A model generated the notes under the pieces. The model saw only the letters and a list, made by a program, of their open reading frames with translations, did no database searches and was not told the origin of the DNA. Positions 3,601-61,300 of a DNA stretch of 64,000 nt are shown here, piece after piece (within the stretch, counting starts at the first letter, position 1; every line of letters begins with the position of its first letter). This stretch comes from Argopecten irradians. Taxonomy: Eukaryota; Mollusca; Bivalvia; Pectinida; Pectinidae. The stretch covers positions 30,013,540 through 30,077,539 of the forward strand of contig NC_091134.1 in the NCBI RefSeq assembly GCF_041381155.1. The letters run 5' to 3'. The translations under genes and the position numbers were made by a program.

Positions 3601-6600
3601 ATTATCATTTAGATATATCTATAGATTGCTGGATAAGATACTGCAGTGGAAGGACCAGTCACTGAAGGGCTAGACACTGAAGGGCCCCTAGTCCCTACCC
3701 TGGTACAAACAATAAGATACTGTGCTCGGAAGGGCCAGTCACTGAAGGGCCCCTAGTCCCTACCCTGGTACAAACAATAAGATACTGTAGTGGAAGGGCC
3801 AGTCACTGAAGGGCCCCTAGTCCCTACCCTGGTACAAACAATAAGATACTGTAGTGGAAGGACCAGTCACTGAAGGGCCCCTTGTCCCTACCCTGGTACA
3901 AACAATAAGATACTGTATTGAAAGGGCCAGTCACTGAAGGGCCCCTAGTCCCTACCCAGGTACAAACAATTATATACTGTAGTGGAAGGACCAGTGAATG
4001 AATTGTTTCCTCTCAGCTTTACTAGACTACTAAGGAAGGCTGGGCTAGATGTTTGTTTTGCAAACTGTTATTCCCTAAATGGCAGTTCCAAATGTCAATT
4101 TCTAAATGACAACTTCAGCTGTTAATACCTAAATGGCAGCTCCAGCTCTTTAAATGGCAATGACAGCTTTAGTTATTGATGCCTAGATAGCAACTTAAGT
4201 AAAATTTGAATGATTAGAAAAAGTATAACAGTATTAGTATTTTAGCATATTATTGAAATGCTTACGGCAAACCAACTTATTTTAGTGTGAGATTAATTTC
4301 CTTGGCGATAAGAAATTGCAAAAATAAATCGTCAAGAAAATGTTTTAAATAAAGGATATACCAATCCTTGATATTAAATCACCTCAAATATAAGGTGGTT
4401 TAGGTTACATTTATTTGACCTTCATTATAGGACGAAATTTCGGAAGCAGATGAATGCTGCAGACTCGGATGCCGGCAATATGGCAATTGATTCTCTTATA
4501 AACTACGAAACCGTCAAGGTACATTGTATAACCATTAAACTTTAACTTTACAAAAGTTGTAACATCAAAAAAAGAAGAAATGTAAAAATCTTGTAAAACG
4601 TGTCCATAAATACACTGGCATGATAGTTGACATGTTTTTATATTATGAAGTACCGGTAAGAATGTTTTAATTTGATTGATTGACATCATCTTTAGGTCAG
4701 CATTTCTAAATCTACCTGCCTATAGTAAATAAAATATCAGTTACCCACCTCTAAAAACTCCTACTGCAAACATGGCTTTCTGTATGGTATTTATGCTCAG
4801 TTATCAATTATCTGCAAAACATATTTCATTTTTAGACCTATTGGTATTTGCAGTGCTCATAATTTCTACAACTCAGGAAAAATATAAAAGAAGAAATATG
4901 TTTGTGAAGAATGAATCTTGAGTGCCTTTACATTGGGATAAATCTTAAATGAACCATAGCTGTTGAATGATTTTTCCACTTGCAAATGAAATGAAAATGA
5001 AATTAAATATATGTGATCTTGACATTATTTCAGTACTTTAACAACGAAACTTATGAAGCTGATAGATACGACAAAGTCCTTGCCAAGTATGAGAAGGCTT
5101 CCCTTAAAATCACCACCAGTCTCGCTGCCCTCAACTTTGGCCAGAACTTCATTTTCAGTGTCGGCCTTACTACAATAATGATTCTGTGTAGTCAAGACAT
5201 TACAGCAGGTAATCTCAGGGATAGACATTACAGCAGGTAATCTCAGGGATAGACATTACAGCAGGTAATCTCAGGGATAGACATTACAGCAGGTAATCTC
5301 AGGGATAGACATTACAGCAGGTAATCTTAGGGATAGACATTACAGCAGGTAATCTCAGTATAGACATTACAGTGTGTAATCTCAGGGATAGACATTACAG
5401 AAAATAATCTCAGGGATAGACATTACAGCAAGTAATCTCAGGGATAGACATTACAGCAGGGATAGACCTTACAGTGGGTAATCTCGGGGATAGACATTAC
5501 AGCAGGTAATCTCAGGGATAGACATTACAGCAGGTAATCTCAGAGATAGACATTACAGCAGGTAAACTCATGGATAGACATTACAGTGGTTAATCTCACG
5601 GATAGACATTACAGTGGGTAATCTCAGGGATAGACATTACAGCAGGTAATCTTAGGGATAAACATTACAGCAGGTAATCTCAGGGGTAGACATTGCAGTG
5701 GGTAATCTCAAGGATAGACATTACAGCAGGTAATATGAGGGGTAGACATTACAGCAGGTAATCTCAGGGGTAGACATTGCAGTGGGTAATCTCAAGGATA
5801 GACATTACAGCAGGTAATCTCAGGGATAGACATTACAGCAGGTAATATGAGGGGTAGACATTACAGCAGGTAATCTCTGGGATAGACATTACAGCAGGTA
5901 ATATGAGGGGTAGACATTACAGCAGGTAATCTCTGGGATAGACATTACAGCAGGTAATATGAGGGATAGACATTACAGCAGGTAATCAGGGATGGACTTT
6001 ACAGCTTGTTATCTCAAGGATAGACATTACAGCAGGTAATCTCAGGAGGGGTAGACATTTCAGCAGGTAATCTCAGAAATAGACATTACAGCAGGTCATC
6101 TCAGGGATAGACATTACAGCAGGTAATCTCAGGAGGGGTAGACATTTTAGCAGGTAATCTCAGAAATAGACATTACAGCAGGTAATCTCATGGAGAAGCA
6201 TTTCAGGAGGTAATCTCAGGAATAACCTATGTATACTGTTAGCAGCATAGTATTCCTACATGAGACCTTAAGGATGTATTCTTCTGTGGTTTCAGTCCCG
6301 TTGAAGTCTCGTTTCAACATAGATTAAAAACGTATTTTCAAATACGATTTATCAATATCTGTAGCATGTGGTCTGTAGCAAATTTTGTCAAAAAATTACA
6401 TTTCTATTTTTAGTAGATTTTTTTACACAGCGATTTTAAGAAATGGCCCATTTGGCGGTCATGTTGAAATTGTGTCTTTTTTGCTTTGAGTAGAGCCACC
6501 GTTTTCCCATTTTTTACTTAAATTGTTTTTACTTAAATCATCACCGCGTCAGCATTTTCAGCTGTATTGAGTTAATTTTTGCTGTAAATCTTCACTGGGT

Positions 6601-9600
6601 TCGTGTTGATTAAAATATTGATCATTAATGTGTGAAATATTACACTTTTGTCACTTTATTTCTACATTTAATGGTAATTTGAGCCCTTCAATTTTTAGTC
6701 AAAATTATTAAAAAATAACAAATATTTAAATGAGGCAAAAAAGTAAGCACACGGACCCCCTATTTTTCTGCCTGATTTAGAAAGAACAACCCTTTTCCTA
6801 TTGATATGCGAACTATTGAAAAAAGTTTAATACCAGAACTTTTTCTATAAAGGGTTAAATTTGACAAAAATGGTTGAAAATGGTGCATTTTGGAGCTCAA
6901 AATTAAGGGGTAGGGGTAGCATATGTTGTTATTTTGAGAAAAAATATGACTCTTATTAATCATAACTGGTATATTTTTAATGAAGACTACTTGAAAATAA
7001 ATTCTACAAACATCCATACATATCAAACACCTCATTAGGGAATTATGGCTTTAAATTCTAGTGTATGGGGTCAAAACGGCTAATTTCCTGTAAAATACAC
7101 TATTTTGTCATTTTGGTATCTTTGAGTGACAATAGCTCAAAAACGAGCACACGGACATATGTTTTTTCTTCCATTTTCTTTCCTATTTCCATAAATCTAT
7201 ATGAGAAAAAAAGTTTAATACAAGAAAATTTTTCAGAGGAGTACATCCTAAGTCAATCTATCTCTTAAAACAATATTATACATTTGTGTACTTAATTTTC
7301 TATTTTTCTTATTTATTTTATGGAAAAAAACCATGAACATTTTAGTGTCAGGTATACATGTACAAGGTAGATATAAACGATCTGTTCTGTGTGTAGGTAC
7401 AATGACTGTAGGAGACCAGGTGATGGTCTGATACTTAGTCTGTTCTGTGTGTAGGTACAATGACTGTAGGAGACTTGGTGATGGTCTGATACTTAGTCTG
7501 TTCTGTGTGTAGGTACAATGACTGTAGGAGACTTGGTGATGGTCTGATACTTAGTCTGTTCTGTGTGTAGGTACAATGACTGTAGGAGACTTGGTGATGG
7601 TCTGATACTTAGTCTGTTCTGTGTGTTGAGTCTGTTGACTTAGGTACAATGACTGTAGGAGACTTGGTGATGGTCTGAAACTTAGTCTGTTCTGTGTGTA
7701 GGTACAATGACTGTAGAGACTTGGTGATGGTCTGAACTTAGTCTGTTCTGTGTGTAGGTACAATGACTGTAGAAGACTTGGTGATGGCTGACTTAGTCTG
7801 TTCTGTGTGTAGGTACAATGACTGTGGATGACTTGTGACTGATACTTAGTCTGTCTGTCTGTGTGTAGGTACAATGACTGTAGGAGACTTGGTGATGGTC
7901 TGAGACTTAGTCTGTTCTGTGTGTAGGTACAATGACTGTAGGAGACTTGGTGATGGTCTGATACTTAGTCTGTTCTGTGTGTAGGTACAATGACTGTAGG
8001 AGACTTGGTGATGGTCTGATACTTAGTCTGTTCTGTGTGTAGGTACAATGACTGTAGGAGACTTGGTGATGGTCTGATACTTAGTCTGTTCTGTGTGTAG
8101 GTACAATGACTGTAGGAGACTTGGTGATGGTCTGAACTTAGTCTGTTCTGTGTGTAGGTACAATGACTGTATGAGACTTGGTGATGGTCTGATACTTAGT
8201 CTGTTCTGTGTGTAGGTACAATGACTGTAGGAGACTTGGTGATGGTCTGATACTTAGTCTGTTCTGTGTGTAGGTACAATGACTGTAGGAGACTTGGTGA
8301 TGGTCTGATACTTAGTCTGTTCTGTGTGTAGGTACAATGACTGTAGGAGACTTGGTGATGGTCTGATACTTAGTCTGTTCTGTGTGTAGGTACAATGACT
8401 GTAGGAGACTTGGTAATGGTCTGATACTTAGTCTGTTCTGTGTGTAGGTACAATGACTGTAGGAGACTTGGTGATGGTCTGATACTTAGTCTGTTCTGTG
8501 TGTAGGTACAATGACTGTAGGAGACTTGGTGATGGTCTGATACTTGTCTGTTCTGTGTGTAGGTACAATGACTGTGAGACTTGGTAATGGTCTGATACTT
8601 AGTCTGTTCTGTGTGTAGTACAATGACTGTAGAGACTTGGTGATGGTCTGATACTTTGTCTGTTCTGTGTGTAGGTACAATGACTGTATGAGACTTGGTA
8701 TGGTCTGATACTTAGTCTGTTCTGTGTGTAGTACAATGACTGTATGAGACTTGGTGATGGTCTGAACTTGTCTGTTCTGTGTCTGATACTTGTCTGTTCT
8801 GTGTGTAGGTACAATGACTGTAGGAGACTTGGTGATGGTCTGATACTTAGTCTGTTCTGTGTAGGTACAATGACTGTAGGAGACTTGGTGATGGTCTGAT
8901 ACTTAGTCTGTTCTGTGTGTAGGTACAATGACTGTAGAAGACTTGGTAATGGTCTGATACTTAGTCTGTTCTGTGTGTAGGTACAATGACTGTAGGAGAC
9001 TTGGTGATGGTCTGATACTTAGTCTGTTCTGTGTGTAGGTACAATGACTGTAGGAGACTTGGTGATGGTCTGATACTTAGTCTGTTCTGTGTGTAGGTAC
9101 AATGACTGTAGGAGACTTGGTGATGGTCTGATACTTAGTCTGTTCTGTGTGTAGGTACAATGACTGTAGGAGACTTGGTAATGGTCTGATACTTAGTCTG
9201 TTCTGTGTGTAGGTACAATGACTGTAGGAGACTTGGTGATGGTCTGAGACTTAGTCTGTTCTGTGTGTAGGTACAATGACTGTAGGAGACTTGGTGATGG
9301 TCTGATACTTAGTCTGTTCTGTGTGTAGGTACAATGACTGTAGGAGACTTGGTGATGGTCTGAGACTTAGTCTGTTCTGTGTGTAGGTACAATGACTGTA
9401 GGAGACCAGGTAGTGGTCTGAGACTTAGTCTCTGTTTTGTGTGTAGGTACAATGACTGTAGAAGACTTGGTAATGGTCGGATACTTAGCCTGTTCTGTGT
9501 GTAGGTACAATGACTGTAGGAGACTTGGTGATGGTCTGATACTTAGTCTGTTCTGTGTGTAGGTACAATGACTGTAGAAGACTTGGTAATGGTCGGATAC

Positions 9601-12600
9601 TTAGCCTGTTCTGTGTGTAGGTACAATGACTGTAGGAGACTTGGTGATGGTCTGATACTTAGTCTGTTCTGTGTGTAGGTACAATGACTGTAGGAGACTT
9701 GGTGATGGTCTGAGACTTAGTCTGTTCTGTGTGTAGGTACAATGACTGTAGGAGACTTGGTAATGGTCTGAGACTTAGTCTGTTCTGTGTGTAGGTACAA
9801 TGACTGTAGGAGACTTGGTAATGGTCTGATACTTAGTCTGTTCTGTGTGTAGGTACAATGACTGTATGAGACTTGGTGATGGTCTGATACTTAGTCTGTT
9901 CTGTGTGTAGGTACAATGACTGTAGGAGACTTGGTGATGGTCTGAGACTTAGTCTGTTCTGTGTGTAGGTACAATGACTGTAGGAGACTTGGTGATGGTC
10001 TGATACTTAGTCTGTTCTGTGTGTAGGTACAATGACTGTATGAGACTTGGTGATGGTCTGATATTTAGTCTGTTCTGTGTGTAGGTACAATGACTGTAGG
10101 AGACCAGGTGATGGTCTGATACTTAGTCTGTTCTGTGTGTAGGTACAATGACTGAAGGAGACTTGGTGATGGTCTGATACTTAGTCTGTTCTGTGTGTAG
10201 GTACAATGACTGTATGAGACTTGGTAATGGTCTGAGACTTAGTCTGTTCTGTGTGTAGGTACAATGACTGTAGGAGACTTGGTGATGGTCTGATACTTAG
10301 TCTGTTCTGTGTGTAGGTACAATGACTGTAGGAGACTTGGTGATGGTCTGATACTTAGTCTGTTCTGTGTGTAGGTACAATGACTGTAGGAGACCAGGTG
10401 ATGGTCTGATACTTAGTCTGTTCTGTGTGTAGGTACAATGACTGTAGGAGACTTGGTGATGGTCTGAGACTTAGTCGGTTCTGTGTGTAGGTACAATGAC
10501 TGTAGGAGACTTGAAGATGGTCTGAGACTTAGTCTGTTCTGTGTGTAGGTACAATGACTGTAGAAGACTTGGTGATGGCCTGATACTTAGTCTGTTCTGT
10601 GTGTAGGTACAATGACTGTAGGAGACTTGGTAATTGTCTCAGACTTAGTCTGTTCTGTGTGTAGGTACAATGACTTTATGAGATTGGTGATGGTCTGAGA
10701 CTTAGTCTGTTCTGTGTGTAGGTACAATGACTGTAGGAGACTTGGTGATGGTCTGAGACTTAGTCTGTTCTGTGTGTAGGTACAATGACTGTAGGAGACT
10801 TGGTGATGGTCTGATACTTTGTCTGTTCTGTGTGTAGGTACAATGACTGTATTAGATTGGTGATGGTCTGATACTTAGTCTGTTATGTGTGTAGGTACAA
10901 TGACTGTAGGAGACTTGGTGATGGTCTGAGACTTAGTCTGTTCTGTGTGTAGGTACAATGACTGTAGGAGACTTGGTGATGGTCTGATACTTTGTCTGTT
11001 CTGTGTGTGTAGGTACAATGACTGTAGGAGACTTGGTGATGGTCTGATACTTAGTCTGTTCTGTGTGTAGGTACAATGACTGTAGGAGACTTGGTGATGG
11101 TCTGATACTTAGTCTGTTCTGTGTGTAGGTACAATGACTGTAGGAGACTTGGTGATGGTCTGATACTTAGTCTGTTCTGTGTGTAGGTACAATGACTGTA
11201 GGAGACTTGGTGATGGTCTGATACTTTGTCTGTTCTGTGTGTAGGTACAATGACTGTATGAGACTTGGTGATGGTCTGATACTTAGTCTGTTCTGTGTGT
11301 AGGTACAATGACTGTAGGAGACTTGGTGATGGTGAATGGCCTGTTGTTCCAGCTGTCGGTTCCTCTCAACTTTCTTGGCTCAGTTTACAGAGATGTAAAT
11401 CAAGCTATTGTCGATATGCATACCATGTTCAGTTTACTGAAAATTAAAAGCCAGGTACAGGTAGGTATCTGAATTTTTTGCTCAGCCTAATCAGAAAAAA
11501 ATCATAGTTTGACCTTAAAAACCAAAGGTCAAAAAGTTTAGCAAAATTTTGAATAAATCTCTTTTGTAGGTCATTTCACCATTAATAGGTAAAAATGACA
11601 CATTGATTAAGAAAAGTTTGTCGAAAGTGAAGTCACAGAGTTGTAATAATACATTCACTCTCATTTTTCAAACAATCCATCAGTTGATGCTATCCAGCAA
11701 TATTTCCATATTACGTCTGATTTCCATCATTAGTAGTAATTATTGTGAAGCTATAAGAAGTGTTTTGTGTTGACCTCTCATTCAAGATCACAGAGGTCAT
11801 AAAGACTATTCTACTATAAGTTGTATTGAATTTATTCAGATGACTGTTAAGGCCCGTTCGGCCTCTCTTGTTTGTGTTCATAGTCGAATAAATGTTCTGA
11901 AAATGTGAAAGTTTGTTTAATCTCTATACAAATGGTTATAGTATTATTACCCAAACATTACACTCTAATTGTACATTGATTTGGATATATTCAGTCTATT
12001 CATAGAAACAAGAGTTATTCATCCTTTTATATTGCAGTCCTTGCCTGATGCTCCCATTCTGATGGCCTCGCCACAACATTCAGCCATTTCCTTTGATAAC
12101 GTCCACTTTGAATACACACCTGGCAGCCCTATCCTCAATGGACTAACATTCGATGTACCGTCTGGCAAGAAAGTAGCCATCGTGGGTGGAAGTGGTTCAG
12201 GGTAAACTCTATTGTATTACTTGTGATCATTCACAGTTCCTTACTCAGATTTCTGCACACAATCTCTTGGCTTGGTTAAGTGTATCAATATAACATTACT
12301 GAGATACTCCTGACCAGATAAACATTCTTCGTGCTTGGACTTAAACTTGATCAACATATTGTCATTGTTTTTATAAGTTGTAGTTTATAATGGTCTCAAG
12401 GTGTATCATGCATATTTATACATTCAAAAGAGAAGTAGGATATGTTGACGATTATAAATGCCATAATTAAGCTATATACATTTGCGTTTATGACATTTGC
12501 TTTCCAGTAAATCCACCATAGTAAGATTGCTGTATCGCTTCTATGATCCGCAACAAGGCAGCATCACCATCAATAACCAATGTATACAGGAGCTGAACCT

Positions 12601-15600
12601 CGACAGCGTGCGGCAGGCTATTGGGGTTGTACCTCAGGTAAGTAAATCAGGGGCTATAACTGTGTATAACACATAAAGGAGCTGTACCTCAAGTTAGTAA
12701 ATCAGGGGCTATAACTGTGTATAACACATAAAGGAGCTGTAACTCAAGTTAGTAAATCAGGGGCTATAACTGTGTATAACACATAAAGGAGCTGTACCTC
12801 AAGTTAGTAAATCAGGGGCTATAACTGTGTATAACACATAAAGGAGCTGTACCTCAAGTTAGTAAATCAGGGGCTATAACTGTGTATAACACATAAAGGA
12901 GCTGTACCTCAAGTAAGTAAATCAGGGGCTATAACTGTGTATAACACATAAAGGAGCTGTACCTCAAGTTAGTAAATCAGGGGCTATAACTGTGTATAAC
13001 ACATAAAGGAGCTGTACCTCAAGTTAGTAAATCAGGGGCTATAACTGTGTATAACACATAAAGGAGCTGTACCTCAAGTTAGTAAATCAGGGGCTATAAC
13101 TGTGTATAACACATAAAGGAGCTGTACCTCAAGTAAGTAAATCAGGGGCTATAACTGTGTATAACACATAAAGGAGCTGTACCTCAAGTAAGTAAATCAG
13201 GGGCTATAACTGTGTATAACACATAAAGGAGCTGTACCTCAAGTTAGTAAATCAGGGGCTATAACTGTGTATAACACATAAAGGAGCTGTACCTCAAGTT
13301 AGTAAATCAGGGGCTATAACTGTGTATAACACATAAAGGAGCTGTACCTCAAGTAAGTAAATCAGGGGCTATAACTGTGTATAACACATAAAGGAGCTGT
13401 ACCTCAAGTAAGTAAATCAGGGGCTATAACTGTGTATAACACATAAAGGAGCTGTACCTCAAGTAAGTAAATCAGGGGCTATAACTGTGTATAACACATA
13501 AAGGAGCTGTACCTCAAGTTAGTAAATCAGGGGCTATAACTGTGTATAACACATAAAGGAGCTGTACCTCAAGTTAGTAAATCAGGGGCTATAACTGTGT
13601 ATAACACATAAAGGAGCTGTACCTCAAGTAAGTAAATCAGGGGCTATCATTGTATAGCGCATAAGAGGCTACATGTATCTTGGATAGGGATGTATACAGT
13701 TAAGAATGAAGTAGTTATGCATTGGAATAATCTCTTAACGAATATTTTAAAGAAATATATGTACTAGAAATATTATGAAGATGAATTTGATTACAATTGA
13801 TGCATATAAATCACTAAAATGGATTAATTGTCAAAACATATGCTGACAGGACGATGGTTGTTTACAATAACAACAAAATATTGCAGTCTCAATTTAGTTC
13901 CAATTTTGGGATTGTTGACAAGAAAAAATGATAAAACCATTAAGAATAATAAAATACATGAATCCATATATAAACTTTTGCAAAAACCTTTTGCAAATTG
14001 TGGAAAAAACAATGTTATACTGCTAACTTGCACATGTGTGACACATATTGGGTCAACAGGAATTTTGTCTGATTTTGTCAATCAGTTTTGCTGTATTTCA
14101 ATAAAAGATAATTGATAATAAAGTTTATATATATACATATTTCATGACATGAATTTTAGGTAATATAGGATGCAATATGGATCATCAAATAGTGAAATTA
14201 GTGGTGGCTTAGTATTATTGTTATTGTCTGATTTCTAGGACTGTGTGCTGTTCCATGACACTGTTTACAAAAACATTCTGTACGGAGATCTCACTAAAAG
14301 CAAAGAGGATGTGGAAGAAGCAGCAAAAATGGCAAGACTTCATGACTCTATTGTTAATAGATTTCCAGCTCAGTATGAAACGCAAGTGGGAGAGAGAGGA
14401 TTAAAGTTATCAGGTAAAGGGACATTTCTTCTCTTGTTATAGGGGTATAAAACAAATAATGTTTGCTGAATGAATTCTGTTCACAATGAGTCTGTAACTT
14501 AACAGAAGAAAACATGTCCATTACTACATAATTATGTACTGCTGTATAGCATTGAATTAGATATGATAGTCGTACCATAGAATTTTAGTTTTGTGGAAAT
14601 ATACCATTTTCAAACTGGGGTGAAGTGATTCAACATGATTTTATAAATTTAATTTTGTACACCCTTAGGGGGAGAAAAACAAAGAGTGGCCATAGCCCGC
14701 ACCATCATGAAGGATCCACCAATCATTGTTTATGATGAAGCTACCTCTTCTCTGGATACAATTACAGAACAGGTAAGAGCAACCAATTACAGAACAGAAG
14801 AATTCAACCAATCACAGAACTGAATAATTCAACTAATTACAGAACAGAATAACTCAACCAATCACAGAACAGAAGAATTCAACCAATCACAGAAATGAAT
14901 AATTCAACCAATTACAGAACAGAATAACTCAACAATCACAAAACAGAAGAATTCAACCAATCACAGAATTGAATTATTCAACCCATTACAGAACAGAATA
15001 AACAGAATAATTCAACCAATCACCGAACAGAATGATTCAACCAATCACAAAACACGAGAACTCAAGCAATCACAGAACACAATAGTTCAACCAATTACAG
15101 AACAGAATCATTCAACCAATCACAGAACATAATGATTCAACCAATCACAGAACAGATTAATTCAACTAATTACAGAACAGAATGATTCAATCAATTATAG
15201 AACAGAATAATTCAACCATTTATAGAAGAAAATGTTCATTTGAAAGGTGTGACAGTTTAACAAATTACAGAACAGTAAGAACAGTTTAACAAATTACAGA
15301 ACAGTAAGAATGAGTTTATCCAATTGCAGAACAGAAGGAATAAGTTTCTGCAAAAACAGAACAAGTCTCTAACCCCTTCCATCATGAGAAGTAATATTCT
15401 GTGGAGAGAGTTTTGGGGTCAGATAGCAATGAAATTGAAAATGAGGAAAAGAAAACTCCCCAACCTGCATCCAATCATGCTATTAGAATTTTATGGTTTT
15501 GTTCAGAGCTTTATCACAATTAATGGTAATTCCATGTAATTACAGAACATTCTGGAAGCGCTACGAAGAATAACAAAAGGCCGTACGACAATAGTGATAG

Positions 15601-16904: not shown

Positions 16905-17690
16905 ATTGTACACAGGTAAACGTGTTGATTTAGATATCTTTCTTGTACACAGGTAAACGTGTTGATTTGGATATCTCTTGTACACAGGTAAACGTGTTGA
17001 TTTAGATATCTCTTGTACACAGTTAAACTTGTTGATTTGGATATCTCTCTTGTACACAGGTAAACTTGTTGATTTGGATATCTCTCTTGTACACAGGTAA
17101 ACGTGTTGATTTGGATATCTCTTGTACACAGGTAAACGTTTTGATTTGGATATCTCTCTTGTACACAATTAAACTTGTTGATTTGGATATCTCTCTTGTA
17201 CACAGTTAAACTTGTTGATTTGGATATCTCTCTTGTACACAGTTAAACTTGTTGATTTGGATATCTCTCTTGTACACAGTTAAACTTGTTGATTTGGATA
17301 TCTCTCTTGTACACAGGTAAACGTGTTGATTTGGATATCTCTTGTACACAGGTAAACTTGTTGATTTGGATATCTCTCTTGTACACAGGTAAACGTGTTG
17401 ATTTGGATATCTTTCTTGTACACAGGTAAACGTGTTGATTTGGATATCTCTTGTACACAGTTAAACTTGTTGATTTGGATATCTCTCTTGTACACAGGTA
17501 AACGTGTTGATTTGGATATCTCTTGTACACAGGTAAACTTGTTGATTTGGATATCTCTCTTGTACACAGTTAAACTTGTTGATTTGGATATCTCTTGTAC
17601 ACAGTTAAACTTGTTGATTTGGATATCTCTCTTGTACACAGTTAAACGTGTTGATTTGGATATCTCTCTTGTACACAGGTAAACTGACTT
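16905..17690 (+). repeat. 35-37-bp tandem array downstream of ABCB7, about 21 copies
   Basis: The unit is 'gtaaacttgttgatttggat' + 'atctctcttgtacacag', with Gly/Thr-type point variants and a 2-bp length variant. Each junction reads 'ttgtacacag/gtaaac', a sequence that could act as both a 3' and a 5' splice site, but no exon was found here. Open frames of about 100 aa on both strands are by-products. Confidence 0.9.
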
Positions 17691-26000: not shown

Positions 26001-29000
26001 CCACAAACTAAAACATATACCAATAGGGCATCAACTGAAACAACAAGAGTATTATAAAATACAATTATTAGCATCAAAATAATGTTAAAATTGATATGGC
26101 ACAATGTGTTTCAAAACTCATTTACCTGGTATTTCACCGAAGACAATTTTTTACATCACAAGTCATAAATACAAGTGTTTCACAACAGTTTACCAAAGAA
26201 TCTGTGTATTGACAGCATTTTGGTTCAAGGAAAAGATTATTGTAATGCTCTTTAACGTAGTCAGCATCTTTTGCACACTGAATATTGCAAAGTAGGTTAA
26301 CTACATCAATAGATTATTCATCCACCATTACAAAGACTACAAGGCACTGTGACAGTGTGATGCTGTGGTCCAGCCTGAAAATAAAGCCAGCTTTTGAAAT
26401 ATGTGCTACCTTTAGCAGCTCTGTTCTTTTCCTTATAATACACTTCCTTAGCCACTGCCTCCATTTCTGATGTCGTCACCTCCAATAAAATTTCTGTCAA
26501 CATCTTCCTGGTTTTCATTATCTGAAAAAGGAGCTCTGTGTAGGTGTTTGTAAAGCGAATCCTTGTTCATCTAGAGTCTGAGTAACGGAGTTATAAAAGC
26601 TCAAATACTATACAATTTTGTTTACGTATTTGCTTTACAACCTGTTAACAGCCAGTTATTTAATGAACAAGATCTTTGATTAATATAAGAATCAACTGTT
26701 GCTCAATAGTTTTTAAACTTACATCTCAGCGTTTTATTGGTATAAATCTATTACAGGATAGAAAGACAAAGTCAATTTATAAATAGTAATAATAATATAC
26801 TTAAACAACAAAGAAATATGAAATGTTACATGAACTAACCATTTCCAGTTGTTTTTCCTCCTCTGTTTTGAATTCCTCTGGCGACGGACTCCTCTTCTTT
26901 GGTTTAATTTCTGGTTTTGGAGACTTAGACTTACTCCTACTACGCTCTGTCTCCTCTTCATTATCAGAATCCTGAAAAATAAATCAACATTACAAATAAC
27001 AGTTGGTAAGACAATGTTGTTAAATTAAACAGAGAAATAGTATTTTGAGTAGCCATCTTCAAGTTAATTGGCTACATTATAATGCATATTTTCAATTATG
27101 TACAAAGAAAAGAATTTCCTACAACACATATAGAAGTGATTGAGTAAAGTTTGGAAGCGAGACCTATTTCTAATTGTTAACTTGAGACATACAAATCTGC
27201 TTTTCTTGGGCACACTAGGCTCCCCCTCAGATTCTCCTCCCCTCTCTTTCAGGATCTCTGCAGCTGCTTCCCTTTCTGCTTGCTCCCGAGCCTCTTTTGC
27301 TTCCTGAATTTCCTTTTCTCTCTTCTCTTTTTCCATTTTCTTTATTTTCTCCCTTTCCATCTTTTCCAATCCTTCTCGTATCCAAGCAGGCAAATTTTTC
27401 CTCTTAGCTGCATCTACAAGTGATGATTATGAAACATACAATTAGATAGCCTCATTCCTTAGGAATTACTCTTTAGTTACCAGTGAAAACAAACAATTTA
27501 CTCAAATTTATATATATATATATGCTATATAATATACAACTATATGTACAAAAATCAATGTAAAATTTTCAACGTAACGTTAATTAATAAATGTATGTAT
27601 ACTTCTCTGTCTTAAATGATGATTGCTATTTTGATCTGATACCAATCAAATCAATGTAGTTTTCAAATACTTTAAGTAAATACAACTAAAATTATGAAAA
27701 ATTTGTTTATTTCAGTAAAAAAAATGAAAATTGGCTCATCGATATGTTATAAATGGTAGCTTGCAACAAGGACTGAAATAAATACTTTTAGTATTGAATA
27801 GCAATACTTTATCAGAACCAAGCTTTCATCGAGATTATGAACAGTGTATTTGAGTACATACATGTACCTGTATTTGAATATACCTGTACTTGAGCACATA
27901 TTTGAGTAACTCTTATGGAGTACATACCTGAGTACACACCTGTATACAAGTACACATCTGCAGTTGAGTACACACATGTATTTGAGTACATACCTGTATC
28001 TGAGTACATACTTGTATTTGAGTATACACCTGTATTTGAGTATATACCTGTATTTGAGTACATACCTATACCACTGTCATCCCCCTGAGGCAGAAATCTG
28101 TTGTGGTCGTGATGACTGTTGAAACCATGGTTACCATGGCTATTCTCTTGGTTATCTGATCCCCAGTATGGTTGGTAGTCACCTTGGTTACCATCCTACA
28201 GACAGCAAATAATGTTATTCCAATTGTTATATGATGATCAGAGAAAGTAACATATTAATTTATTCTGATAGTGTTCCAGATAGTGTGTGTACAAACATAA
28301 TTACACCCAGATAGGTATAAAAACTCAATGTGTGTACAAACATAATTACACCCAGATAGGTATCAAAACTCAATGTGTGTACAAACATAATTACACCCAG
28401 ATAGGTATAAAAAACTCATGTGTTACAAACATAATTACACCCAGATAGGTATCAAAACTCAATGTGTGTACAAACATAATTACGGCCAGATAGGTATCAA
28501 AACTCAATGTGTTACAAACATAATTACACCCAGATAGGTATAAAAACTCAATGTGTTACAAACATAATTACACCCAGATAGGTATCAAAACTCAATGTGT
28601 GTACAAACATAATTACACCCAGATAGGTATAAAAACTCAATGTGTTACAAACATAAATACACCCAGATAGGTATAAAAACTCAATGTGTTACAAACATAA
28701 TTACACCCAGATAGGTATCAAAACTCAATGTGTTACAAACATAATTACACCCAGATAGGTATAAAAACTCAATGTGTTACAAACATAATTACACCCAGAT
28801 AGGTATAAAAACTCAATGTGTGTACAAACATTATTACACCCAGATAGGTATAAAAAACTCAATGTGTTACAAACATAATTACACCCAGATAGGTATAAAA
28901 ACTCAATGTGTGTACAAACATAATTACACCCAGATAGGTATAAAAACTCAATGTGTGTACAAACATAATTACACCCAGATAGGTATAAAAACTCAATGTG

Positions 29001-31731
29001 TTACAAACATAATTACACCCAGATAGGTATAAAAACTCAATGTGTGTACAAACATAATTACACCCAGATAGGTATCAAAACTCAATGTGTTACAAACATA
29101 ATTACACCTAGTGTACACCTGGTAATCCTATGTATACTTGTATATAGACTCACATTTTGGTAATCATATGTATACTTGTATGTAGACTTACATTTTGGTA
29201 ATCCTATGTATACTTGTATGTAGACTTACATTTTGGTAATCCTATGTATACTTGTATGTAGACTTACATTTTGGTAATCCTATGTATACTTGTATGTAGA
29301 CTTACATTTTGGTAATCCTATGTATACTTGTATGTAGACTTACATTTTGGTAATCATAATTTTCCTCTCCGTGATTGTAATCATAAGACTGTTGAAACCC
29401 TCCACCGTGGCCATACTCAAATGTCTGGGATTCCTGAATGAAATAAATATAATGATTGCATAATTACTATTTTAATTTCACATATAAAGTCATTCAACCA
29501 TATAAATATATTTGAACTCTTTGACTGGAACAGGGAATACTTAAAAAGGAAACAGTATGGTCAATGATCTATCACACAGATACAAAGCTGTTTAAGAATG
29601 AAAATATTACATTTCATCTGAATTTATGTCTTTACTAAACATATATACAAATACATACTGTTGTTATAGCTTTATAACAGATACATATCAGTCCTTTTAA
29701 CTATGCATGTTTAGTAGACCGTAAAGGCATCTCAGTATCATAGTGAATATGGTTTTATGAAATAATTATCTTACTATTTTCTCATCCTCCACAGATGGCT
29801 GGGGCATGGTCCAGTTAGGTGGAGGCACGCTCCAGTTTTGTTGTAAACCCCATTCCCATCCTTGAGGCTGACTACCTTGAGCAACAAAATCTGAAAATGA
29901 TCAATAATATACAACAGTTCTAAAACAACATTCATTGTATCTTTTGTTTTCAACAATATTGTAATGTATCACATGTAATTAACAATGACTGCAGGGAATA
30001 GGTAATATGTCTTTCAGCATCTTTTTAGAAGAAATTAATAATTGATAAATATGGAAAGACATTATAAAGAGAAACTTAGGACCAACTACTGGCTCACTTA
30101 AAGTCCTTCTAATCTTGGATGAGCCCTGGAATTGAACTTACTGTTGAAGTTATTAGCTTTGTTGGGTCCATTTTCATTATCCCCATCATCTAATTCCATG
30201 TCCTCTCCACCTCCTCCATTAGAGGGAGCCACAGGCGGTGGTGGTGGGGGTCCGGCATGCATTGCCATCATCATAGGCCCAGGCATTGGTGGTGGTCCAC
30301 CTGGCTGTACAGGTGGTGGGGGTATAGACATATTGTCCGTGCCCACGGTCTCCTTCTGCTGAATCCATTGTTTAGCTAGTGCTGCCCAGTCAACTGAAAA
30401 TCAATCACAAACACTATATACTTAGGTCATTGGATTTTTTCCAGGAGAAAATTACTCAAAATGTATGATGTGCTACATGTTTAAACAAAATGCACTTCTA
30501 GCTAGATATATATATATGACCGAAATAACAAACATTAAAACAAATCTGCAATCCAGCTTTCCCAGCTACTTCTGCTCTTCAGGGGATGTTTATTTATGAT
30601 GAAGAGCAGTGGTAGCTGGGAAAGCGCTAGGGATTGCAGATTTGTTTTAATTTTGTCTTTTCGTGTTTTAATTCCATCACAAGAATATTCTTGATTTATT
30701 TATTCTATATATAGTCTGAGAAGAAATATGGTAAATTACTCACAATATTACAACAGGCTTTCTCCAAAAACAGTTCTTCTATTTCAATATAATTTGTGGA
30801 TATGCAACAATGGATTTTCCCTTAAATTTAGTTTATTTTGAAAGTAAGGTTTGCTTATATTAGTTACAGGAGAATTTCCACAAAATATATACAGTCAAAC
30901 CATGATGTAACAAGAGGCCCAGAGGGCCTGTATCGCTCACAGCTAAAAACAGTTCAAGGGACCGACAGAAAAACTTTGAAACATTAACATTGAGACTTTG
31001 AATTATTCATGGTTAGTATTACAGCGATGTTAACTGTGGTAGTTGTGTACATGTCATCGCGGTTGCGTAAACTTTATAATCATTGAATTTACAACAAACA
31101 AAATAAAATACAATTAATCACATGTATTGCTATCAATGGCAATATATATATTATAAACATGATTTATGCGTACTAGGCCTAACCCATATACATGTGTACA
31201 TGTGGTGACTAATATGAATATGAAGCAATATTACGGATTGAACATAAAAATGAAAACATGCTGTAAAAACGAAACTAAAAAGGAAGAACCAAAAGTGCTA
31301 CAACACCTACAAAAATATTTTGATTTAGAATCAATGATCTACTTGCTCCAGTATTTATGACAAAGTTTGGAATGTAACACTTTATATGAATTACTAATTA
31401 TGTGACCCGCTATCTACCATTCCGTAAATTGTCTTTTTTATTCGAATAATCAAGTGTTAGTTACCTGTATGATTCTATAACAAATGGCCCATGAAAAAAA
31501 GTTTGATACATCAAGAACTTTGATTCATACATGTATTTGCTGGTAATGTTACATAGTGGAGAAATTCGGGACCAAGCAAAAAGTTTGATTCTGAAAGAAA
31601 TTTGATTCATCGGAGTTTGAATCATCAAGGTTTAACTGTACAGTAACCTTTATATATAGCTCACCTTGTTCATGTGGAATGCCTTGAAATGACTGCTGCA
31701 GCATACCAGCTGGCCACGGATTGGCCCACAT
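20088..31731 (-). CDS. PNISR: PNISR homologue, SR-related nuclear protein (complete)
   Basis: Twelve coding exons in transcript order: 31731-31665, 30393-30142, 29890-29775, 29433-29344, 28195-28066, 27413-27193, 26971-26840, 26521-26410, 25413-25360, 23356-23192, 21516-20502, 20097-20088. They total 2364 nt, giving 787 aa (human about 805). The start MWANPWPAG corresponds to the human MWDQ start; the exon continues upstream as 5' UTR to an acceptor at 31810. Conserved blocks follow in family order: VDWAALAKQWIQQ (about 23), a proline-rich run (46-85), LPAWIREGLEKMEREK (about 226), KMLTEILLEVT (about 342), KQLSKSTALATLTGLGG (about 377) and a Ser/Arg domain (about 480 to the end). The human protein is a nuclear, pinin-associated SR-related factor, so a role in splicing is inferred. 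Exon 12 adds only three codons' worth of sequence. Two of its introns are built of splice-site arrays. A polyadenylation signal is possible near 19885. Confidence 0.93.
20098..20501. other. Last intron of PNISR
   Basis: On the minus strand it begins with the donor gtgggc and ends with 'tacttccag'. The open frame continues into it for about 40 codons, so intron retention would give an alternative C terminus. Nothing else is recognised. Confidence 0.5.
22036..22257 (+). other. Candidate promoter plus first exon of an unidentified nested gene
   Basis: Inside the PNISR intron 21517-23191, on the opposite strand. A perfect NRF-1 palindrome TGCGCATGCGCA (22036-22047) follows an octamer ATGCAAAT (21997-22004). 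An ATG at 22073 opens a 29-codon basic ORF whose TGA overlaps a second ATG (22159, 'ATGA'). The second frame runs 33 codons (starts MISLGNEIQRLHVAIEETEA) to a good donor (GTG/gtgagt at 22257). I do not recognise the protein and found no second exon. It could be a decayed gene or chance. Confidence 0.3.
22438..22582. mobile_element. Partial copy of the 'TTTGATGTACATCAAA' foldback MITE
   Basis: Shares the 16-bp palindromic core and the right arm of the element at 47766-48070. It is truncated on the left. A 16-nt A-run follows near 22735. Confidence 0.6.
24016..24918. mobile_element. 903-bp foldback DNA transposon derivative with TA target sites
   Basis: Terminal inverted repeats CAGCGCCGTTACAA (24016-24029 and 24905-24918) are flanked by TA at 24014-24015 and 24919-24920. 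The interior also folds back: 'gtcaaaatatattcc' near 24222 pairs with 'ggaatatattttgac' near 24550, and 'gttagtaggggatg' near 24268 with 'catcccctactaac' near 24507. No transposase is encoded. It lies in the PNISR intron 23357-25359. TA duplication suits the Tc1/mariner superfamily. Confidence 0.75.
25414..26409. other. PNISR intron without recognisable content
   Basis: AT-rich, about 1 kb. Short open frames on both strands lack any conserved feature. No repeat was recognised. Confidence 0.5.
27840..28065 (-). repeat. 18-bp tandem array next to a PNISR 5' splice site
   Basis: On the minus strand the exon ends GGTATAG/gtatgtactc at 28066, followed by about 12 units of 'gtatgtactcaaatacag'. 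Each unit joins as 'atacag/gtatgt', so the donor and its last exon bases recur. Some copies read gtgtgtac or gtatatac and are weaker donors. Confidence 0.82.
28283..29108 (+). repeat. 41-43-bp tandem array, about 20 copies, in a PNISR intron
   Basis: The unit is 'tgtgtacaaacataattaca' + 'cccagataggtataaaaact' + 'caa'. It lies in the intron between the exons at 29344-29433 and 28066-28195 and does not copy an exon edge. It adjoins the splice-site array at 29120-29343. Confidence 0.9.
29120..29343 (-). repeat. 38-bp tandem array copying a PNISR exon end and 5' splice site
   Basis: On the minus strand the exon ends GATTACCAAAAT/gtaagtctac at 29344. The array repeats 'gtaagtctacatacaagtat' + 'acatag' + 'gattaccaaaat', about 6 copies. 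Each unit thus carries the last 12 nt of the exon, fully matching, followed by a consensus donor. Confidence 0.9.
30535..30650. repeat. Foldback element in the first PNISR intron
   Basis: The left arm 'ttaaaacaaatctgcaatcc' through 'tctgctcttc' pairs with the right arm 'gaagagcagtggtagctggg' through 'gcagatttgttttaa', with a 20-nt loop. Small indels separate the arms. It follows a (TA)n tract, like the palindrome at 39782. Confidence 0.75.
30880..31664. repeat. Dispersed repeat in the first coding intron of PNISR
   Basis: Begins with 'aacaagaggcccagagggcc' and 'tgtatcgctcac' at about 30909-30940, a motif shared with 3240 and 45008. The rest up to the donor at 31664 is AT-rich without coding signal. 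Confidence 0.5.
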
Positions 31732-32507: not shown

Positions 32508-32509
32508 TG

Positions 32510-34290: not shown

Positions 34291-34299
34291 TTTTAGTGT

Positions 34300-34960: not shown

Positions 34961-34990
34961 AGAATCTCACAAAAAGGTATCAACGTCCTG

Positions 34991-35430: not shown

Positions 35431-35439
35431 TTTTAGCCC

Positions 35440-37338: not shown

Positions 37339-37346
37339 ACTTCCGG
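37339..37346 (+). promoter_or_regulatory. ETS/GABP-like site at COQ3 start
   Basis: ACTTCCGG eight bases before the COQ3 ATG. GABP sites are common in promoters of nuclear genes for mitochondrial proteins, so the placement fits. Binding is inferred. Confidence 0.4.
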
Positions 37347-37353
37347 TAACAAT

Positions 37354-46097: not shown

Positions 46098-46099
46098 TA

Positions 46100-47765: not shown

Positions 47766-48070
47766 ACCCTCAATACTCCAGGGATTACTATCACTGACAT
47801 TATATACCTGGACTATTTCATACTAAAACTGGAGGCAGCTCATGAGTAAAAAACCGTCAAAGCACAGGCCTGTAGAGACTTCCTTTGAAGACTACAGAGT
47901 GAGAGAGTGATGCCTGACATCAAAGCCACACTGTGTACCGTTATTCAATTCTTTTGATGTACATCAAAGGACCAAATTCAGCTGAAATTACCTGTGTCTT
48001 TAGTTTTACTATGACATAGTTTACGAGTGGATATAATGAAAGTGATAGCAACCCCTGGAGTGTTGAGGAT
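47766..48070. mobile_element. 305-bp foldback MITE with palindromic core TTTGATGTACATCAAA
   Basis: Arms of about 65 bp pair: 'ccctcaatactccagggatt' on the left with 'aacccctggagtgttgaggat' read inverted on the right. Related partial copies lie at 19623-19840 and 22438-22582. Confidence 0.75.
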
Positions 48071-55300: not shown

Positions 55301-58300
55301 TTTAAATACCAGTAGCATTAAATCTAAATATGCAATCAAAAGCAAACTTTGGTTGAATATGGCAAACATATAAAATGGCACTCGTATATATCGTCATTGA
55401 CTTGCATCATATATCATTATCGCTTCAATTAAAAAGAATTCAAAGATAAGTATCACTTTATATTAACAAAAATATCACTTTGAACATTGAATCATAACTA
55501 TTTCAACAAAAAATGATTTCCATATTAAATAAAATCACAGTTACTTGTTGTATGCATATATATTACAACTAAAGGCAAATAATTACCCGCACCGTTTTAG
55601 TTTTGATAAAGTGAAAGTGTCACTACAGAAAAAAGGAAACAAACCATGTAATATTGTCTATCAACAATTAAAAGAAAAATAAAAATTATTCAAAATGAAA
55701 ACCTCTCACAAATGAAGCAAAATAAACCAGAGATATAATTAATATCTCTGTATAAACTGACTAGAATATCTTAAACATCATAGAGCCTTTGATATTTATC
55801 AGAATTTTGTTACCTAACTTGTTTACCTGAAACACAAGTTTAATCTCTCATGTTTCTAAGATAAGAATAATACATGATTGCATTACAGGGGTAAAAGAGA
55901 CAACATCTTTATTCCTATTTTAAAAAAAAAGTTGAACATTTCATAGAAATTCAGTTTTTTTCAGCTAATTTCAAGTAAATACATATTTCTTCAATAATTT
56001 GACGGTAATTACTTAAAATATGCATCTAATTTTTACGGTTATAAACTTAAAATAAAAATGTTAATGCTTTTATCATTTATGTTATTTTAAGAAAAATTTA
56101 ACTGATGAATCATTTTTCCGAACTCTTCTCAATGAAAACACTTAATAAAGTTTTACAGCAAAATATGTGTATGTATTTTCTGTAAAAAAAAGTTTGATCT
56201 AGCTAGGTATTTACTTGCTTTGCTATCACACGAGCACGCACACTGAGACGATTGGCTGAAGTCTGTGCTCTATGCAGATTAAATGGTGGAAAAGCTCTAG
56301 GAACCGAGGCACTTGGAGAATGTGGCATGAAAACCGACAATTGAGGAACATTTACATCTGAATTTGCCATGTCTTTAAAACATCGATTACTTGACTGTGG
56401 ATAAATAAATTTTTCTGGGCCCCACTCAATAACAGATGGTCCATAGGTATGTTCATCATTAGTAATGTTATTGGTAGGAAATTCAGATGACGATAGCGCA
56501 GATGAGCCTTGCCTAGAGTGAATGTGAAGGTTTTGATTGGTTGATTTAGGATAAAAGCCAGACACACCAATATCAGTAAGATAAGAGAAACCAGAGGCAT
56601 GCCATGGCATAGACACGGGAGGGAGCTTTACCTCGACACATTTTGTGCTTTTTGACATGGATTGCTGGGTTTCCTCCTCCTCCTCCCCATCTTCTACCAC
56701 AATTGTAGTAGATTTATCTGTGCTGTAGGATGCTGGACTCCACTGATGGGCGAGCTTTGCCATGAGAAAATGCTTATCACTGGGCTCTGATTGAGACCTC
56801 TCTAGGTAGTTATTTAGTGCCCTTATGCTGTAGGCTCCAGAATTCTGTCCATTTGAAACATTTTCCATGGAAGGATTGCTAACAGAAATACTTCCATTAT
56901 TGTTAGTTTCTGATGACCAACTTGTTGGCACAAAGGGTTTGCAATAACCCTCAGCTTTAACAGGACCTAAGACAGTTGCAGAATTGGAAGAACCAAGGTA
57001 TGGAAGCTCAGGAAGGGCTCGAAGTTGGTGCGTTACAACTTGATTCAACTGGTTTTCAGTAGGTATATATGATGAGATAGGAATGAGGTCAGACTTAGAT
57101 CTAGTTGTTGATATGGGCTGGAGGTTGGACCCTGGTGTTTGTGTGTTCTGGGACACTGGTGTCAATGTATTCTGGGACCCTGGTGTCTGTGTATTCTGTG
57201 ATATGGGCTGGAGGTGGGACCCTTGTGTCGATATATTCTGTGATATGGGCTGGAGGTGGGACCCTGGTGTCGATGTATTCTGTGATATGGGCTGGAGGTG
57301 GGACCCAGGTGTCGATGTATTCTGGGGCACTGGTGTCGATGTATTATGTGATATGGGCTGGAGAAGGGACCCTAGTGTCTGTGTATTCTTGGACACTGGT
57401 GTCAATGTATTCTGTGATATGGGCTGGAGGTGGGACCCTGGTGTCGATGTATTTTGTGATATAGGCTGGAGATGGGACCCTGGTGTCAATGTATTCTGGG
57501 ACACTGGTGTTGGTGTATTGTGATCAGATTTTGAAGGCTTTAAGTGGATATCTTTGTTTGGTGAGGATTTGATTTGTTGCATATTTGATGAAGAGTGCAT
57601 AGAACTTTTCACGAGGAAGGGAGTGATGTGTGGCGTTTGTTTGAAGTTTGATTTTGTTGATTGTGATGATTCTACTGTGTAAGGTTTTGTCTCATTTGAA
57701 ACTGTTGGAGAGGTGTCTGCACTTCTTTCCATGCCTGGAGTAACATTCCGTGAAGTTATTTGCTCTGTTTGACCTGAGCTTGAAGATAAATGTGATGGTA
57801 TATCTGGCTCATGTAACTCAACATCCTGCCGATGAGCTCCTTTGTCATGTGATTCTGGTTTGAAACTACTTGACATTGACAACATGGAAACCAAAGATCC
57901 AGTTTTTGAACCTTCTAACACCTGAATGGGAGTGATAAAATCGGCACAATCATGTATACTGCAGCTATCATCAAAGAACTCCTCCAAGTGATCATCAGCT
58001 GATCTTTGAAAAGCTAGAGTATCAAGTGCCTCAGTTCCTGATGAGTGAAACCCTGTGTCACACACACTACCACTGTTGACCCGAGGGTCTGTACTATCCC
58101 TGAGTGCATTATTGGCAGCTGGACTTTTGCAGTGTACTGGTGTATTATCAATGTGATTACTACTTTCAATCTCATTCTCAGATGAATCCGATTCATTTGC
58201 TGAAGTCAAGAAACCACCTTGATTAAAGACCTTTAATGCCCTTTTGCCCATTTTCCTCACCTTTCCACTACTGCTGGCTGGTCCAATGCGTCTGCCTCTC

Positions 58301-61300
58301 TTTAGCCTTTGAATGTATGCCGCAGGTGGTGAACTTTTGGGGTGAACTTGATTTAAACCATTCAGATTAGCAATTGTTTGCAGCTGTTTTTTATATTTCT
58401 TTTCATTTTTCATGAATGCAGGGACACGAAGACAGTCAAGGCGAGCAACTCGTTTACATCTTGGAATTTCATCTGGACAGATTTTTCCACTCATCATTAC
58501 ACCAAAGTCGATGGAATCTATATTTCTTAGGATTTCAACAGCACCTAGATAATAACAAAAACGTCAGTAACAGATCAGACTTTCTACCAATAAATTCTAT
58601 TGGACATTATTACCAGTGGACTAAAAAATATTATTTGGCATTGGTCTGTGTGGCAGGGAATTTGATTGCTCAAAACACTGAGTGAAGATTTTTTGTCTTT
58701 AACACCTATCTTGATGTAAGGTTATACATGTAATTCCACTGTTTTTGTGATACAAGTACAACAAATTATCTTGATACACCGTGTGGTATGCTTCACATAA
58801 CCTTAATATAATTAAAGCATTGAGTTAACCTTCAAAGTAGCACTGGTCTTTTCCATATCCTCCAATATCATTTGGATCCACAAGGCCACGCTTCACCCTC
58901 ATACAGTACTTCCATCGCTGTTCTTTACTTGATATGTATGTTCCTAGGTGGTCAAACAGCTGTTTAAATGACATCCCACTGGCTTTACAGGCTGTATCTG
59001 TATAAACATGAAGAAGTTAAGTAAGGACTATACAGGCTGTATCTGTATTAATATTAAGAAGTTAAGTAATGACTATACAGGCTGTATCTGTATTAATATT
59101 AAGAAGTTAAGTAATGACTATACAGGCTGTATCTGTATAAATATTAAGAAGTTAAGTAAGGACTATACAGGCTGTATCTGTATAAATATTAAGAAGTTAA
59201 GTAATGACTATACAGGCTGTATCTGTATAAATATTAAGAAGTTAAGTAATGACTATACAGGCTGTATCTGTATAAATATTAAGAAGTTAAGTAATGACTA
59301 TACAGGCTGTATCTGTATAAATATTAAGAAGTTAAGTAATGACTATACAGGCTGTATCTGTATAAATATTAAGAAGTTAAGTAATGACTATACAGGCTGT
59401 ATCTGTATAAATATTAAGAAGTTAAGTAATGACTATACAGGCTGTATCTGTATAAATATTAAGAAGTTAAGTAATGACTATACAGGCTGTATCTGTATAA
59501 ATATTAAGAAGTTAAGTAATGACTATACAGGCTGTATCTGTATAAATATTAAGAAGTTAAGTAATGACTATACAGGCCGTATCTGTATAAATATTAAGAA
59601 GTTAAGTAATGACTTTACAGGCTGTATCTGTATAAATATGAAGAAGTTAAAGATGCTTCACCGCTGACAAATGGTATTTTTTCACTATTAAAAACAGGAG
59701 CAGACGATTTAGTATTTTTCTTCAGTTACAAAAGTTACTTACTTTACACTATTACCACCATTGAAAAGTTTGAGCTTCTAATTTTACTTCAATTTAAAAA
59801 TATGAAAAATAATTAATTGCATCCCGAAAAAATTCAGAGGCACTATATTCTATATGGAATGAAGTACTGATTGCACATGCACAACAGGCGAAATAAATTA
59901 TTTTATATTATTTTTTGTGTTAATTAGGCATATTTATACACGATTTAACACCAATTATTGCTCAAATGATGAATATCATTTACACTCTGTCGGCGGTGGA
60001 GCATCTTTAAGTAATGACTTTACAGGCTGTATCTGTATAAATATGAAGAAGTTAAATAATGACTTTACAGGCTGTATCTGTATAAATATGAAGAAGTTAA
60101 ATAATGACTTTACAGGCTGTATCTGTATAAATATGAAGAAGTTAAGTAATGGCTTTACAGGCTGTATCGGTATATACATGTACATAAAGAAGTCAAGTTA
60201 TGACTTTACAGGCTGTATCTGTATATACATGAAGAAGTTAAGTAATGACTTTACAGGCTGTATTATGAAATATGAAGAAGTTTTAAAAATATATCAAATA
60301 TTTTAGCATTTGTATTCAATAATTTATATTTCTATTTTTATTCTTCAATTTTTAATTTGTGTTCTAAATATATGTGTCACATTTATATTGTAGAAGTTAT
60401 TTGTTTTCATTGTAAAAAAGTAATTTGTATTCTATAACATCCATTCATAATGTAGATGGTGTGTCAAATTCATCCATAAAATCTTACAGAAATACATACT
60501 TCTTTCTGTCTGTTACATGTAGGTGTTGTTACAATGCTTAACTGTAATTGTAACGGATAGTCCTAGTAACTGTCACATCTAATATGTCACGTAACTTACA
60601 ATACAACATGGCAGGTCCCCACAGAAAGCGTTCCTTGGCCTCCAGTATAGTATGTATGGCAGCTAGTCCTTCTTCTGCTCGCATATGCTCTAGACTACCC
60701 ATACCTTTGATACCAAATCTCCGTCGGTCACTATACCAGGGTTGAAGGCCATCATTGAAGGCACGGAACTAATATCATTAAGGAAATAGATAAAAGTTTA
60801 TTGAAAATTTCCACAATTAATTCTAACTAGTAGAATACTTACACAGAGCTCTCCAGTGAGGATGATTCCTATTCAGACTAGAACGAATACACGTACCCGG
60901 CCTACTATACCTTTCAGTCGGGTACGAATTGGTCCCTATGTGTAGTAGTGGAGCACTGCCTCCGAAAAATACTCGGGCACAGTTTTCTATACTTTTTTGT
61001 AGGTTTCCAATTATTTTATGCGTAGGTATACATGCATTTACATATTATTTTTGTCCAAAACAAACATAACTACCATTCTTAATATCAACCGTACCGCTCA
61101 CAAGACGTCAAATTCACAATTTGTGGACTTGTCGTAAAAATTCCTCTCAGAAAGACCTTCATATGTATTACGTAAAAAAATAATGCCTCGATGAGAATTT
61201 GATATTTAATGTGGTTCAGTTTTATTGCCTAGTAGGTCAGCGATATCAAACAAGTACGATAAAATGCAAACAAACTTTTATAATGGTTTGAATAATTATT

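Follow-up and report, generated by a model that had tools for sequence, protein, structure and literature searches.

Minisatellite-like tandem repeats that span exon-intron boundaries, at 5' as well as 3' splice sites, are known in amphioxus as mirages; as described in parts of two reports (PMC3087553, PMC3902484), they are unstable in length, and reverse-transcription polymerase chain reaction suggests that splicing is regular. In the scallop Argopecten irradians, a 64-kb stretch of the genome (C1:30013540-30077539, hereafter the window, numbered from its first letter) carries seven arrays that touch exon edges, on five donors and two acceptors in six introns of three nearby genes: ABCB7 on the + strand, and PNISR and a KIAA0895L/MATCAP1-like gene on the - strand. 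These arrays are probably minisatellites of the mirage type, begun by tandem duplication across a junction, tolerated, and then grown into the intron.

Like the amphioxus examples (Adh3, the globins BflGb6 and BflGb9, PGBD5 and others), the scallop arrays occur at both 5' and 3' sites of unrelated genes, with a unit that spans the boundary in six of the seven, copies that keep or lose AG or GT, and a coding sequence that is unaffected. They differ in belonging to a mollusc and not a cephalochordate, in their clustering, in reaching up to 68 copies, and in one intron having unrelated arrays at both ends; the scallop case is known from the DNA of one assembly alone. The scallop arrays extend a known kind of repeat and are notable for phylum, number and density. 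Among the matches listed in the open-licence literature, mirages were reported in amphioxus only, with no report in molluscs, and the main text of a survey of tandem repeats in Daphnia (PMC3152781) contains neither 'splice' nor 'exon-intron'. Tandem repeats make up 21.7% of another scallop genome, that of A. pleuronectes, in the section of PMC10225492 that treats them; ordinary scallop minisatellites have similar unit lengths and copy numbers, and the junction arrays differ from them in position, the unit including the exon edge. Were the pattern genome-wide, scallop genes would set tens of identical splice sites in natural competition and so allow a direct test of exon-proximal choice; new introns might also keep arising from such arrays in animals other than chordates.

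The arrays were detected with Tandem Repeats Finder (TRF) and by reading of the raw sequence, and are as follows, a slash marking the exon edge:

5195..6224, + strand: A1, 28-nt unit, at the donor of ABCB7 exon 8 (after 5208, CAG/GTAATC), with 14 exonic nt (5195-5208)
7381..11333, + strand: A2, 58-nt unit, ~68 copies, at the acceptor of ABCB7 exon 9 (11303), with 31 exonic nt (11303-11333)
12628..13647, + strand: A3, 55-nt unit, at the donor of ABCB7 exon 11 (12637, CAG/GTAAGT), with 10 exonic nt (12628-12637)
14759..15347, + strand: A4, unit of ~25 nt, at the donor of ABCB7 exon 13 (14772, CAG/GTAAGA), with 14 exonic nt (14759-14772); related degenerate copies prolong it to ~15347
29120..29355, - strand: A5, 38-nt unit, at a donor of PNISR (exon ending on base 29344, AAT/GTAAGT), with 12 exonic nt (29344-29355)
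27929..28067, - strand: A6, 18-nt unit, next to another donor of PNISR (exon ending on base 28066, TAG/GTATGT), with 2 exonic nt (28066-28067)
58986..59650, - strand: A7a, 45-nt unit, at acceptor 58997 of the MATCAP1/KIAA0895L-like exon 58830-58997, with 12 exonic nt (58986-58997)
59651..60006, strand not assigned: element of 356 nt inside A7, resembling a miniature inverted-repeat transposable element, read by eye
60007..60282, - strand: A7b, continuation of the 45-nt array of A7a past the inserted element

An earlier note on this DNA had described seven arrays touching exons in these three genes, and TRF and the raw sequence bear out all seven. Its statement that the unit copies the exon edge together with the splice site holds for six; the array at 28066 abuts its edge without copying it, and as a junction-copying array A6 is a weak case. 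The exonic match, given as 6-31 nt, comes to 10-31 nt in the six and 2 nt at 28066. At 14772 the exonic part is copied but the donor GT is gone from the copies, and the unit length previously given for that array is corrected to ~25 nt. The MATCAP-type acceptor, formerly placed at 58991, belongs at 58997, from which ..AMLYYTACKASGMSF.. aligns with ..ALLYYTIHRAARMSF.. of PDB chain 7z5g, whereas 58991 would give ..YSCKAS... With these amendments, the evidence supports independent copying of the exon edge and its splice site into the units of six arrays out of the seven.

Two of the arrays repeat what amounts to a complete 3' splice-site module: the A2 unit holds a branch-point-like CTGAT, a pyrimidine-rich stretch, AG and exonic nucleotides, and the A7 unit carries TTAAC/TTAAT branch-point-like motifs and TATACAG. 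A2 also shows a higher-order period of 174 nt by TRF, and together with A1 it gives ABCB7 intron 8 arrays of unrelated units at its two ends. That the units are unrelated in sequence, as had been proposed, is mostly upheld by pairwise comparison (45 pairs, 30 shuffles); two marginal pairs of the 45 exceed their shuffles, A2-A4 (similarity 14, shuffled maximum 9) and A3-A7 (16 versus 14). A 373-nt piece of A3 has its own locus as sole match in the 845.8-Mb assembly, in a search that skips very common words. A single dispersed repeat family is thus not what is seen, the units being mostly unrelated, with the multi-locus search covering one array of the seven. Introners, the intron-making transposons treated in part of PMC9860276, also supply splice sites; the scallop units differ in being mostly unrelated and, for the A3 unit that was searched, confined to their own locus.

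The 31 exonic nt at 11303 encode an 11-residue stretch that is mostly kept in PDB chains of ABCB7 and in two more distant relatives, 7n58 and 7pqx (GDLSVGDLVLI in the latter); we take the ABCB7 chains to be human, 7n58 to be from a plant and 7pqx from a fungus. Since these residues, encoded by the longest of the repeated exon parts, are conserved even in distant relatives of ABCB7, the exon is the source of the A2 unit: the repeat derives from the exon, and the conserved sequence at 11303 was not brought to the gene by the repeat. Each unit joins exonic and intronic sequence in genomic order, so that duplication took place at the level of DNA or of unspliced RNA and not of spliced RNA, and, the exonic part being coding DNA, across the border. 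In Pecten and Ylistrum, protein models of ABCB7 read straight across these junctions.

On the reading preferred here, a short tandem duplication at the DNA level, by slippage or repair, would by chance span an exon-intron border, and the new copy would thereby carry the exon edge and its splice site. The copy contiguous with the exon would remain the authentic site, all beyond it becoming intron, and cross-exon recognition should favour the site adjoining the exon; a 5' site is described as stimulating the upstream 3' site across the exon in the relevant part of PMC8724738. Use of a decoy would lead to a premature stop and probably to decay, leaving the duplication nearly harmless; nonsense-mediated decay as a backup for weakly defined new introns has been argued for Drosophila, in a passage of PMC2809761. 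Unequal exchange or slippage would then lengthen the array on its intron side, as in other minisatellites of the genome, with decoy sites weakened (12637) or lost (14772) in some arrays.

The expectation of well over 100 decoy splice sites compares with 114 GT or AG sites in four arrays that equal, beat or come within 2 nats of the authentic site on a simple hand-set position score, a count of sites of which a few are not at the copied position. At 5208 (A1), 20 GT sites score at least as high as the authentic donor and 5 more fall within 2 nats; at 11303 (A2), 57 acceptor sites are equal or better, with 10 more within 2 nats; at 29344 (A5), there are 4 equal decoys and 1 within 2 nats; and at 58997 (A7), none is equal and 17 lie within 2 nats. 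A6 adds 6 GT sites scoring at least 2, counted as GT sites only, without an authentic score. All 18 decoys of A3 are weaker than the donor at 12637, none within 2 nats, and read CAAGTTAGT (11) or CAAGTAAGT (7), never the authentic CAGGTAAGT. Two genes in particular thus hold a large surplus of splice sites, which the splicing machinery has to pass over. In silico splicing to the ABCB7 decoys brings a stop before the normal one in 25/25 cases at 5208, 65/65 at 11303 and 18/18 at 12637; these 108/108 predicted stops agree with the tolerance of the duplications that we infer. Survival of such duplications can be explained without the causes put forward earlier (slippage or break repair primed at junctions, or selection that keeps repeats beside exons), which are not needed. 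Recursive splicing through A2 was considered and rejected, its copies regenerating only a weak donor (CAG/GTACAA, 3.6).

Growth into the intron is suggested by the higher-order period in one array and by divergence away from the exon in three of the seven: A1 (rho 0.50, P=0.002), A5 (rho 0.85, P=0.034, 6 copies) and A6 (rho 0.77, P=0.044, 7 copies), these P values being uncorrected for seven arrays. A7 predates the element lying within it, which has terminal inverted repeats matching at 17/19 nt and a TTAA target duplication at 59647-59650 and 60007-60010; by these features, the element is piggyBac-like.

Whether the junction is a special place for such arrays was approached through two local tests and a comparison sample. 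Three gene segments hold nine arrays, of which six reach across a junction by 6 nt or more; random placement of unit-length seeds, with exon interiors excluded, would give 1.19 (P=2.2e-4), the MATCAP1-like and PNISR segments being cut around the arrays. An exon-edge score above 12 is reached by 7/12 window arrays, compared with 8.3% of 600 positions drawn at random in the window (P=1.5e-5) and with 12.3% of 269 genic positions. These 12 arrays were hand-picked (the coding array 57109-57519 and low-copy arrays were excluded, A7a and A7b merged, and one non-hit of 3.5 copies retained), the A6 edge was set 3 nt further into the exon, and the score was trained partly on window exons, which favours the window over the sample. 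Local enrichment is clear but post hoc, and is carried by ABCB7 (4/5, P=8.5e-4; PNISR 1/3, P=0.33; MATCAP1-like 1/1, P=0.19). The low-copy arrays of the window show no junction overlap; only two lie in segments with listed junctions, so that a bias at birth and a bias in growth are not separable.

The sample consists of twenty 10-kb stretches (200 kb) taken every 3.6 Mb along C1, of which tandem repeats make up 19%, with 17 arrays of at least 4 copies. Two of the 17 exceed an exon-edge score of 12, no more than controls (10.6% of 283 positions). One repeats coding sequence of a NOLC1-like gene and the other, in the stretch L019, has no recognisable exon and a flank repeat that is also present in the stretch L010; with both set aside, by judgement, there is no convincing junction array in 200 kb holding 39 predicted exons (31 in the window). 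Window and sample differ by Fisher's test at P=7e-4 (7/12 versus 0/16, the two named arrays dropped) or P=0.003 (versus 1/17). A codon-only edge test on 25 sample edges places 12% above 5, compared with 3.3% of 6251 controls, at low power and with a coding repeat among the top two. Without bias, ~0.4 junction arrays are expected in the sample, a figure estimated for 16 arrays and 78 predicted edges with a span of 60 nt; the rate of the window would give several, so a several-fold or moderate bias still fits. Of the recurring junction process proposed earlier, the independent copies in six of seven arrays stand, but neither specificity to junctions nor a genome-wide preference for them is shown by the window and the 200 kb together.

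In a genome about one-fifth minisatellite, some arrays must cover junctions, and an extreme window may simply have been noticed, with no special process at junctions; we consider this possible, if somewhat doubtful. It agrees with the sample, in which the share of arrays above threshold resembles that of controls and neither hit is convincing, with the enrichment outside ABCB7 not being significant alone, and with the ~13,200 windows of 64 kb that fit the genome, among which P values of 1.5e-5 to 2e-4 are expected in 0.2 to 3 windows; the strong local controls and, notwithstanding the training of the score, the Fisher comparison run counter to it. That junctions are favoured places of birth or growth, as could result from breaks or pausing linked to transcription, or that exon-adjacent arrays are kept by selection, is in our view rather unlikely: the local enrichment and the occurrence of amphioxus mirages in several unrelated genes argue for it, and the want of a convincing junction array in the 200-kb sample, the small numbers and the post hoc nature of the tests argue the other way. 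An assembly artefact is very improbable, since variant copies, the higher-order period, an ABCB7 frame intact on both sides and the transposon-like, TTAA-flanked element inside A7 are unlike read collapse or over-expansion, though copy numbers may still be wrong.

Chance duplication across a junction followed by tolerance and growth also has observations weighing against it. The six junction-spanning arrays exceed the 1.19 that tolerance alone predicts, so that junctions may be favoured or the region may be a local hot spot; there is no divergence polarity in A2, A3, A4 or A7; splice-site copying at 14772 rests on the exonic part, no A4 copy keeping its GT; A6 has only its 2 exonic nt; and the use of exon-proximal sites is itself something that we infer.

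The Rogers model, as set out in PMC3087553, has introns gained when coding DNA that contains AGGT is duplicated in tandem. It resembles the present case in its duplicated junction-like segments and perhaps in the unit at the two ends of ABCB7 intron 13; unlike the model, the far ends of the other scallop introns show either another array or no match. The feature concerned is:

15537..15551, + strand: far acceptor of ABCB7 intron 13, TAATTACAG/AACATT, of which 12 nt (15538-15549) are identical to the A4 unit

This identity suggests that the A4 unit is present at both ends of intron 13. The match scores 14, a value reached by 1/300 random flanks, the best of 12 other ABCB7 acceptors reaching 9; as one of seven arrays tested, this comes to ~2% after correction. 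The ABCB7 model of Mizuhopecten (P0003) leaves the others right after VPQ (junction 12637 here) and rejoins them with ..RPITEQNILAAL.., in which a stretch resembling the unit leads into exon 14; this suggests, from a protein model only, that the unit may also stand at the 3' end of intron 13 in that genus. New introns have been proposed to originate from mirages (PMC3087553), and at least intron 13 might have arisen by tandem duplication of coding DNA. We hold this to be distinctly improbable: the far-end match is absent in the other six arrays, and the two cut points differ by 5 nt in the unit, so that the frame is not preserved without a later shift. A wider proposition, that scallop junctions favour minisatellite growth, that splice-module arrays are common in genes and that they occasionally become introns, ABCB7 intron 13 being one, is also improbable. 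P0003 goes wrong exactly between two junctions that bear arrays here, which suggests that arrays at these ABCB7 loci also disturb annotation or assembly in Mizuhopecten.

The ABCB7 junctions are fixed by the gene model and homologues, those of PNISR are backed by the orthologues P0121 and P0122, and that of the MATCAP1-like gene by PDB chain 7z5g. The ABCB7 model was built up by hand and checked by translation because the gene finder over-called tiny exons inside the arrays; the gene has 14 coding exons in the window, 671 aa in a single open frame, with its 5' end outside. Identity of the protein is 90% with Pecten maximus, 88% with Ylistrum balloti and 87% with Mizuhopecten yessoensis (over 74% of the query). 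A Pfam search found no domain in two MATCAP1-like fragments, but PDB comparison did match (7z5g). A methyltransferase gene, presumably COQ3, sits between the array-bearing genes. The exons are:

671-766, 1145-1354, 1906-2035, 2425-2611, 2806-2887, 3509-3597, 4431-4518, + strand: ABCB7 coding exons 1-7 in the window, from gene model and homologues
5034-5208, 11303-11460, 12038-12201, 12508-12637, 14239-14413, 14669-14772, 15546-15773, + strand: ABCB7 coding exons 8-14, likewise
30142-30393, 29775-29890, 29344-29433, 28066-28195, 27194-27413, - strand: five PNISR exons (27194..30393), the last edge by eye

Two intronic arrays of the window lie off the junctions and were counted against the pattern:

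3664..4002: 64-nt array in ABCB7, 66 nt from the exon 6 donor
28284..29108: 44-nt array in PNISR, 11 nt from A5

Further repeats were seen in and beyond the genes. At 57109-57519 the long MATCAP1-like exon contains a coding minisatellite with TRF periods of 24, 42, 66 and 108, each a multiple of 3, and the 786-codon frame around it remains open. A 37-nt array at 16906-17685, ~1.1 kb past the ABCB7 stop, has many units with a donor-like CACAG/GTAAAC; it has no recognisable exon and an exon-edge score of 10.0.

In the sample, the NOLC1-like gene combines, in the stretch L022 (2464-3859 and 7703-9239), a 120-nt coding repeat of 11.6 copies with a 33-nt array of 47 copies, the latter apparently directly after a stop codon of that gene. 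In L024 (2146-2296 and 2348-6060), 169 copies of a 22-nt unit form an array that starts ~50 nt upstream of the acceptor of a predicted exon, near the junction and not on it. Distant arrays in L010 (~6838) and L019 (~4229) have a common flank of 39 identical nt, which places some scallop arrays inside or beside a dispersed element. Within the window, the intergenic segment 34434-34766 on the - strand holds a reverse-transcriptase-like open frame (GVGQGDSLSPTLFNVYINDL), which, by its motif, is probably the remnant of a non-LTR (non-long-terminal-repeat) element.

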